From positions 62,001 to 126,000 of the forward strand of contig CAJXKF010000004.1 of the NCBI GenBank assembly GCA_913055695.1: DNA of 64,000 bases. Reading direction: 5' to 3'. Positions within the stretch are counted from its first letter, which is position 1; each line of letters starts with the position of its first letter. The notes under the pieces were generated by a model. The model had not been told where the DNA came from, searched no databases, and was given only the letters and a program-made list of their open reading frames with translations. This document shows, piece after piece, positions 15,972 to 18,655 of the stretch. Source of the DNA: an uncultured Methylophaga sp. Its GTDB lineage: Bacteria; Pseudomonadota; Gammaproteobacteria; Nitrosococcales; Methylophagaceae. A program made the translations under genes and the position numbers.

Positions 15972-17108
<1,137 letters not shown>

Positions 17109-17128: not shown

Positions 17129-17168
17129 AAGACCTTTGCAAATGCGTTTTATTTGCGAAGGTCTTTTA
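17129..17168 (+). terminator. Strong hairpin with U-rich tail between mreB and mreC
   Basis: Arms 17129-17143 and 17151-17165 pair over 15 bases with one internal mismatch and a short loop, followed by TTTTAGTTTT. It looks like an intrinsic terminator or attenuator that would make mreB much more abundant than mreCD. Its 3' end is only about 20 bases before the proposed mreC start. Confidence 0.8.
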
Positions 17169-17184
17169 GTTTTGGACGCTAGCC

Positions 17185-18192
17185 ATTAAACCCTTATTTA
17201 CCAATACACCGTCGTTAAATACCCGGATGATGCTGGCTTTGCTGGCGTCACTGGCCTTGTTTTTTCTCGACTCGCGTCTCGATTATTTCAAACCGGTCCG
17301 TTCGGCCTTATCCACGCTGGTTTATCCGATACAGGCAACCGCCTCTTTGCCCACCAATTTTGCCGACTGGATGGGTGACTTTTTTCAGGATCGTGAACAA
17401 CTGCAAGAACAGATCACGGTGATGAGCGCCACCAACAAACTGCAGAGTATCCGCTTACAGAAAATGCAGGCGCTTGAGCGTGAGAATATGCGCCTGCGCG
17501 AACTGTTGGGTTCTTCGTTCCGCCTGCAGGAACGGGTGCAGGTTGCAGAACTGCTGACTGTAGATCTGGACCCGTTTTCACAGCAGGTCATCATCGACAA
17601 AGGCAACAACTACGGTGTTTATGTCGGCCAGCCGGTGCTGGATGCCCACGGCGTGATGGGGCAGGTCACCGAGACCTCGCACTTATCCAGCCGCGTTGTT
17701 CTGCTGACGGACCCGAGTCACAGCATTCCGGTGCAAATCAATCGCAACGGCCTTCGCGCTGTTGTGACCGGCCGGGGGCTGGGAGAGGAATTACAGATGG
17801 ATTTTCTGCCGCATAATGCCGATGTCAGAAAAGGCGATCTGCTGGTGACTTCCGGGCTTGGTGGCCGCTTCCCGGTCGGTTATCCCGTTGGCAAAGTGGT
17901 TTCGGTCGATTTTCCACAGGGTAAAGCTTTTGCCGATATCAAAGTTGAGCCTGCCGCCAACCTGTCTACCAGTCGTGAAGTCATGCTGGTGTTACCGGGG
18001 GAAAAAATTCATACCGAGCCGTTACTGGCACCGACACCTGCTGCGTCAGAGGCGCAGGCAACAGCTGAGCCCACGGTACCTGCCATGTCAGCGGAACAGG
18101 AAACGGTTACGCCAGCAGCCTCTTCGGCAGAAACCACTGTGACAGCACCCCAAACTCAGACAGAGGAGGCGGCAGATGGCGACAAGCGCTGA
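17185..18192 (+). CDS. mreC: Rod-shape-determining protein MreC (apparent ATT start)
   Basis: Bitopic inner-membrane protein of the elongation complex: short cytoplasmic end, one transmembrane helix (about residues 15-31), coiled coil (about residues 65-110), then a beta-rich periplasmic domain (VIDKGNNYGVYVGQPVLDAHGVMGQV, TSGLGGRFPVGYPVGKV). The tail after about residue 275 is rich in Ala, Thr, Pro and Glu and probably unstructured. The first ATG is at 17227, but codons from ATT at 17185 read I-KPLFTNTPSLNTR-MM, which aligns from residue 1 with the usual gammaproteobacterial MKPxFxxxPSLxxR start. No ATG, GTG or TTG lies in frame between an upstream TAG and 17227, so ATT is the likely start; 17227 is the conservative alternative. 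Confidence 0.9.
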   Translation: MKPLFTNTPSLNTRMMLALLASLALFFLDSRLDYFKPVRSALSTLVYPIQATASLPTNFADWMGDFFQDREQLQEQITVMSATNKLQSIRLQKMQALERENMRLRELLGSSFRLQERVQVAELLTVDLDPFSQQVIIDKGNNYGVYVGQPVLDAHGVMGQVTETSHLSSRVVLLTDPSHSIPVQINRNGLRAVVTGRGLGEELQMDFLPHNADVRKGDLLVTSGLGGRFPVGYPVGKVVSVDFPQGKAFADIKVEPAANLSTSREVMLVLPGEKIHTEPLLAPTPAASEAQATAEPTVPAMSAEQETVTPAASSAETTVTAPQTQTEEAADGDKR

Positions 18193-18655
18193 ATCCAGAA
18201 ACGGTTTTGTGATCGTGATTACTGTGATCATCGCGATGTTGTTAATGCTGGCCCCTTTGCCTGATTTTGCCCGTTATTTCCGTCCTGAATGGGTGGTCAT
18301 GACCCTGATTTACTGGGCCATGGCCTTGCCGCACCGGGTCAGTATCGGTGTCGGCTGGCTGACCGGTCTACTGATGGATGCGATGATGGGCACGACCCTG
18401 GGCATCATGGCGTTCAGCTATGCACTCGCGGTCTATCTGATTGCGCGTTTCCACCTACAGTTGCGACAGTATCCCCTGTGGCAGCAGGCACTGACGATAT
18501 TTTCAGTGGTACTCTTGGTACATCTTATCGCCATCATTGCAGCTGGGCCGGAGATAGACTGGATTATCTGGATGCCAGTCCTCACCAGTACCCTCATGTG
18601 GCCAATCATGTACGCGGTGCTGCGCAAGATCCGTCGCACTTTCCAGGTGAGCTGA
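18176..18655 (+). CDS. mreD: Rod-shape-determining protein MreD
   Basis: Small inner-membrane partner of MreC. 159 residues, almost all hydrophobic, with five to six transmembrane helices and the family stretch FRPEWVVMTLIYWAMALPHR then GVGWLTGLLMDAMMGTTLG. Overlaps the end of mreC by 17 bases and is followed six bases later by mrdA, so mreC, mreD and mrdA are one transcription unit. Confidence 0.95.
   Translation: MATSAESRNGFVIVITVIIAMLLMLAPLPDFARYFRPEWVVMTLIYWAMALPHRVSIGVGWLTGLLMDAMMGTTLGIMAFSYALAVYLIARFHLQLRQYPLWQQALTIFSVVLLVHLIAIIAAGPEIDWIIWMPVLTSTLMWPIMYAVLRKIRRTFQVS

Follow-up and report, generated by a model that had tools for sequence, protein, structure and literature searches.

A conserved AUU codon as the probable start of mreC in Methylophaga, and AUH start codons of mreC across the Gammaproteobacteria

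Start codons of the AUU, AUC and AUA type are usually regarded as a curiosity of a few genes. Two described systems are close to the case presented here. The gene infC is known for its AUU or AUC start; both infC and sigR are repressed by IF3, which makes initiation complexes on rare start codons less stable (PMC5472188). The extensive ribosome-binding site of sigR may offset its poor start codon (PMC5472188). For E. coli infC mutants with altered fidelity, noncanonical starts are reported to gain 3- to 15-fold in expression (PMC5472188). Below, we compare these systems with mreC, a cell-shape gene, for which we write AUH for a start codon that reads ATT, ATC or ATA in the DNA.

The window, meaning the whole stretch of 64,000 nucleotides that was analysed, contains a frame that runs from an ATT codon (17185..17187, + strand) to a stop ending at 18192, a length of 335 codons. 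The 335-residue product (17185..18192, +, stop included) matches the MreC models TIGR00219 (213.5 bits, cut-off 92.75, alignment from residue 5) and PF04085 (153.8 bits, cut-off 28). Positions 17167-17187 read TAG TTT TGG ACG CTA GCC ATT, so that an in-frame stop (TAG, 17167..17169, +) precedes the ATT. The codons AAA CCC TTA TTT ACC AAT ACA CCG TCG TTA AAT ACC CGG follow, encoding KPLFTNTPSLNTR, and then two ATG codons, the first at 17227. The sequence-only reading had placed the start of mreC at ATT 17185, at the head of a conserved N-terminal end, and had noted that no ATG, GTG or TTG lies between the TAG at 17167 and 17227; direct reading of the strand agrees on the latter point.

Comparison with relatives bears out the former. 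An MreC match was obtained in 52 of the 58 relatives searched; the window's family (f1), which named loci assign to Methylophaga and Methylophagaceae, comprises 34 genomes with a match, its own genome counted, and the start could be read in all of them. At the site of ATT 17185, 27 of these 34 genomes have ATT and 7 have ATC, and in none does the codon read ATG, GTG, TTG or ATA. Named strains such as M. sulfidovorans DSM 11578, M. aminisulfidivorans MP and M. muralis are among them. Between the upstream stop and Phe5, ATG, GTG and TTG are absent from 33 of the 34 genomes, the remaining one (L019) having an in-frame ATG 42 nt upstream. On the family DNA tree (34 genomes), the difference between ATT and ATC requires 5 changes; the third base thus moves, though never to G in these 34 genomes. 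The codons behind the ATT are also conserved. Codon 2 is Lys AAA throughout, and Leu at codon 4, Phe at codon 5 and Arg at codon 14 are invariant in all 34 genomes, all three with synonymous changes. The pN/pS ratio is 0.20 for codons 2-14, 0.36 for codons 15-60 and 0.65 for the in-frame codons just upstream, and the region upstream of 17227 is therefore conserved at the protein level. At the level of the sequence, ATT 17185 is confirmed as the conserved start of mreC, and initiation at the AUH codon itself is well supported as an inference. For two genomes of another family of the window's order (L036 and L037, family f2), the alignment puts TAT at codon 1, and an in-frame stop coincides with this codon or closely precedes it. 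They have neither ATG, GTG or TTG nor an AUH codon at the site, and ATT-GTG at codons 6-7 is a possible start.

We surveyed the class with a profile built from 15 MreC proteins; of 370 genomes sampled evenly across the Gammaproteobacteria, 339 had a match. Starts of mreC were read in 222 genomes from 156 families. The class genomes supplied one or a few starts for each family, and f53, f95 and f159, three families with matches, were left out of this start survey, as was f47 (E 2.8e-5). A genome was classed as AUH-only when it had AUH in the aligned position or in a directly adjacent codon and, between the upstream stop and Phe5, no in-frame ATG, GTG or TTG. In 33 genomes outside the family the profile match began after position 5, and these were set aside as having an unrecognisable motif. 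Taking the first genome of each of the 156 families, 56 were AUH-only and 17 had AUH together with another in-frame canonical codon, while 26 had a canonical start at the site and 20 had one elsewhere; no rule fitted 4, the AUH lay at a contig edge in 1, and the motif was unrecognisable in 32. Among the 188 genomes outside the window's family, the corresponding numbers were 69, 23, 31, 24, 7, 1 and 33. The additional canonical codon of the 23 lies far upstream in some and inside the motif in others. The canonical codons at the site (n = 31) are ATG in 26, GTG in 3 and TTG in 2. An AUH start of mreC is not universal in the class, since 31 genomes have a canonical codon at the site and 24 have one elsewhere.

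The best 80 of 561 named candidate loci, a selection biased towards the window's relatives, were AUH-only in 66 cases and AUH with another canonical codon in 8; 4 were canonical, 1 canonical elsewhere and 1 cut off. The AUH-only loci of this selection include Methylophaga and Pseudomonas species. The site reads ATC in Pseudomonas delhiensis, P. carbonaria and P. nicosulfuronedens and ATA in P. panipatensis. It is ATG in E. coli (MKPIFSRGPSLQIR) and in Aeromonas, and GTG in Acinetobacter baumannii; in Legionella adelaidensis, the annotation starts mreC at a more upstream ATG, where the gene overlaps mreB. In a locus titled Halioglobus sp. (L269), the start column holds GTT behind GGGAGGTGTCCC; a TTG within the motif is the sole canonical codon in frame ahead of Phe5, so that this gene possibly has a GUU start. 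With one genome per family, ATA was found at codon 1 in 14 of 60 cases against 6.6 expected from the genes' internal Ile codons (simulated P 0.003). This over-use is weak evidence, as it is absent over all 102 AUH-only genomes (16 against 13.3 expected, P 0.25).

A similar routine applied to mreB classed none of 135 evaluable genomes as AUH-only; in 130 of them a canonical codon occupied the conserved start site or lay close to it. For mreB the position was allowed to vary by up to 3 codons, a looser rule than for mreC, and 81 of 216 loci were excluded because their start was truncated or badly aligned. The positive control infC was AUH-only in 21 of 30 genomes, a low count in that some of the 9 "canonical" genomes (L318, L328, L329 and L333) owe this class to nothing but a GTG or TTG at codon 7-8 of the aligned stretch. 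The infC gene of the window's own genome, as read from its sequence, has an ATC start (L051 2010-2008, - strand; G000:C1, about 143972-143970). It stands one codon after the stop of the frame before it, and this infC has no canonical codon to use instead.

Shine-Dalgarno (SD) strength was expressed as the energy of the duplex that the 3' end of 16S rRNA forms with the 20 nt preceding the start. The median for AUH-only mreC outside the window's family is −7.1 kcal/mol (n = 69), with 93% at −5 or lower. Median values are −2.8 for canonical mreC starts (n = 31), −3.8 for mreB starts (n = 129) and −2.5 for positions inside mreC (n = 510). SD motifs of at least 4 bases lie 6-9 nt before the AUH codon in 45 of 49 cases. 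When the assumed start was slid along the frame, the best median (−6.4) fell on the AUH codon itself; two or more codons upstream the values were −1.1 to 0.7, and a smaller dip of −3.0 appeared at +30 nt. For the genomes outside the window's family, this peak is evidence for AUH initiation beyond what the protein alignment provides. The window's family departs from the strong SD that is typical of AUH starts, though not obligatory for them, with a median of −3.3 kcal/mol (n = 33); in the window itself, a weak SD-like GGA (17174..17176, +; within TTTTGGA) is located 8 nt before the ATT.

The distribution of the two start types was followed on a tree of MreC only (133 rows, quick method, LG+G4), which is poorly resolved, with 11 of 130 inner branches starred. 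AUH and canonical states interchange about 19-25 times on this tree, and 25 changes compare with a mean of 39.3 after shuffling, none of 500 shuffles being as low. Another 33 changes occur among ATT, ATC and ATA. The AUH state is thus clustered on the tree, where one gain with many losses is indistinguishable from several gains. The AUH start codon of mreC is a widespread and probably old trait of the Gammaproteobacteria and not an oddity of one genome.

The gene lies directly behind mreB, for which we took ATG 16062 as the start (16062..17108, +; the listed ORF begins at GTG 16050, and PF06723 scores 491 bits on 16050-17105). An ORF with an ATG start that overlaps the end of mreC (18176..18655, +) is a candidate mreD by position and overlap, on the basis of the order mreB-mreC-mreD annotated in E. 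coli. Fold prediction places a terminator-like hairpin of 16 pairs with a loop of 5 between mreB and mreC (17129..17165, +), followed by a T-rich tail (17166-17173), and the intergenic region with the first mreC codons has a folding z of −2.94 against shuffled sequences. Most of the family's 34 mreB-mreC intergenic regions, though not all, have a predicted hairpin followed by a T-rich tail; in this comparison, one row (L009) takes in part of mreB. Three genomes (L026, L030 and L034) have changed stem sequences with pairing kept, three others (L029, L032 and L033) have a weak fold of −10.4 to −12.3 kcal/mol, and one (L006) has an intergenic region of 332 nt, unlike other family members. In three genomes of the window's genus (L021, L022 and L027), the region measures 124 nt and a longer, different structured stretch replaces the usual single hairpin. 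A promoter scan gave no promoter-like site between mreB and mreC (2 found in the region against 1.9 expected). The hairpin may act as a partial terminator. E. coli has a GC-rich inverted repeat between mreB and mreC, GGCAGGG...CCCTGCC, without a T-run (L311 2200-2227).

Taken as a whole, we consider it very probable that AUU 17185 starts mreC and that AUH starts of this gene are widespread in the Gammaproteobacteria; as to how they work, a limit set by IF3 that would keep MreC low is the likeliest reading. The AUU would be read as formyl-Met by the initiator tRNA, giving MreC its full cytoplasmic end MKPLFTNTPSLNTR. Owing to the codon-anticodon mismatch at the AUH codon, the 30S initiation complex would be prone to rejection by IF3, and MreC synthesis would be slow and dependent on IF3. 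The strong SD added in most lineages would ensure that initiation still occurs at that single place. In the window's family, where the SD is weak, the hairpin, whose end lies 19 nt upstream of the AUU, may reduce transcription into mreC as well, and MreB would then be in excess over MreC through two independent steps. The dependence on IF3, the low level of MreC and a benefit from it are inferred; both the IF3 link and low MreC are compatible with the ATC start of the genome's own infC and with the terminator-like hairpin. The spread of AUH starts across dozens of families suggests that many bacteria deliberately keep MreC sparse.

A different account also takes the AUH codon as the real start, and we regard it as possible, though on balance doubtful. 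It holds that AUH is one of two interchangeable routes to weak initiation, a strong SD with AUH or a near-absent SD with AUG, and that the level of IF3 has no regulatory role. AUH starts have a strong SD in 66 and a weak SD in 9 cases, whereas canonical starts have a strong SD in 6 and a weak one in 22, and weak initiation itself may be what is kept. The SD at canonical mreC starts is indeed no stronger than at positions within mreC, and the 19-25 changes of state on the tree fit with two exchangeable routes. In independent pairs on the starred branches, the association of AUH with a strong SD had the same direction in about 3 of 4 pairs and was not significant (median p 0.25). The two-route account, however, leaves the long persistence of AUH unexplained: ATG is one mutation away, and the 5 changes between ATT and ATC within the 34 genomes never produced it. 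By sequence, this account and IF3-limited initiation are not separable.

That the true start is the downstream ATG (17227..17229, +; codon 15), or the annotated downstream start elsewhere, with the KPLF motif untranslated, is highly improbable. Such a start has the merit of using standard codons only, and one P. aeruginosa record is annotated in this way. Codon 15 is, however, Leu in 8 of the 34 family genomes, and codons 2-14 are under purifying selection; on these grounds we rejected a start at 17227, which, as the sequence-only reading had maintained, would remove a conserved end. In the AUH-only genomes outside the family, the first canonical codon after Phe5 lies at a median of codon 18 (past codon 14 in 66 of 69) and has practically no SD (−1.1 against −7.1 kcal/mol), the AUH site having the stronger SD in 69 of 69. 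In addition, the MreC of E. coli includes the N-terminal motif. The P. aeruginosa record (CP123788.1, L312; 1131 bp, from a plasmid collection) covers the end of mreB and most of mreC and reads TAG GAG CGG ATC ATC AAA CCG CTA TTC, with the TAG in frame (207-269 region). Its mreC is annotated from GTG 267, 48 nt downstream of ATC 219, with SD energies of −2.5 kcal/mol at the GTG and −6.9 at ATC 219. Either of the two tandem ATC codons may be the start. Judged by the alignment, the gene is annotated 48 nt too far downstream, and the annotated protein lacks the conserved N-terminal motif.

Even less credible is an internal Ile1, with translation coming from an unrecognised upstream codon or by frameshift out of another frame. 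Long open frames upstream of mreC do occur in a few genomes (L058, L066 and L118), but an in-frame stop lies two codons before the ATT or ATC in 24 of the 34 family genomes and close upstream in many others. Moreover, the SD peaks at the AUH codon, and the same column is ATG in other lineages; nearby in-frame stops led us to reject an upstream start for most genomes. A sequencing or assembly error in the window's genome has a negligible probability and was rejected, as ATT or ATC is found independently in 34 of 34 family genomes, named strains included.

An open-licence literature search returned no report of an AUH start of mreC, which is not proof of absence. Genes initiated at AUU or AUC are a known kind; mreC as such a gene, the breadth of the trait and its pairing with the SD appear to be new. 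More tentatively, and with a chance that we put slightly below even, mreC would be a core gene beside infC that has kept an AUH start across much of the class, with the amount of MreC tied to the ratio of IF3 to ribosomes, and the enterobacteria, among other lineages, would have swapped it for ATG with a weak SD. If so, the assembly of the cell-elongation machine would be tied to that ratio likewise. The ratio of MreB to MreC may be fixed at the start codon, and an AUH-started mreC offers a testable link between the fidelity of translation initiation and the control of rod shape. Gene callers are liable to trim the conserved cytoplasmic end of MreC in many genomes, as has happened in the one P. 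aeruginosa record. Further genes of this kind may come to light by screening for Ile codons that are conserved in the first column and preceded by an SD.

When comparing mreC and infC, which is autoregulated by IF3, both genes carry AUH at a conserved site, preceded by an SD, and in the window's genome both are AUH-started (ATC in infC, ATT in mreC). Unlike IF3, the product of infC, MreC is no translation factor, so that no feedback on its own synthesis is expected, and mreC of the window's family differs from infC in its weak SD. The likeness to sigR of Streptomyces lies in the combination of a rare start codon with a strong ribosome-binding site and in misannotation in databases (PMC5472188). 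A further likeness is that one member of an operon pair is kept below its partner, as described for sigR (PMC5472188) and as is proposed here for mreC. Whereas the GTC start of sigR and its repression by IF3 were shown experimentally (PMC5472188), the AUH start of mreC is read here from sequence. The GTC start is also reported for Streptomyces and not for the other actinobacterial genera discussed (PMC5472188), whereas the AUH start of mreC extends over dozens of families. A third close counterpart is mreC of E. coli and Aeromonas, the same gene with the same N-terminal motif (KPIF...PSL..R) and, in E. coli, the operon order proposed for the window, but with ATG in the very column where the window has ATT.
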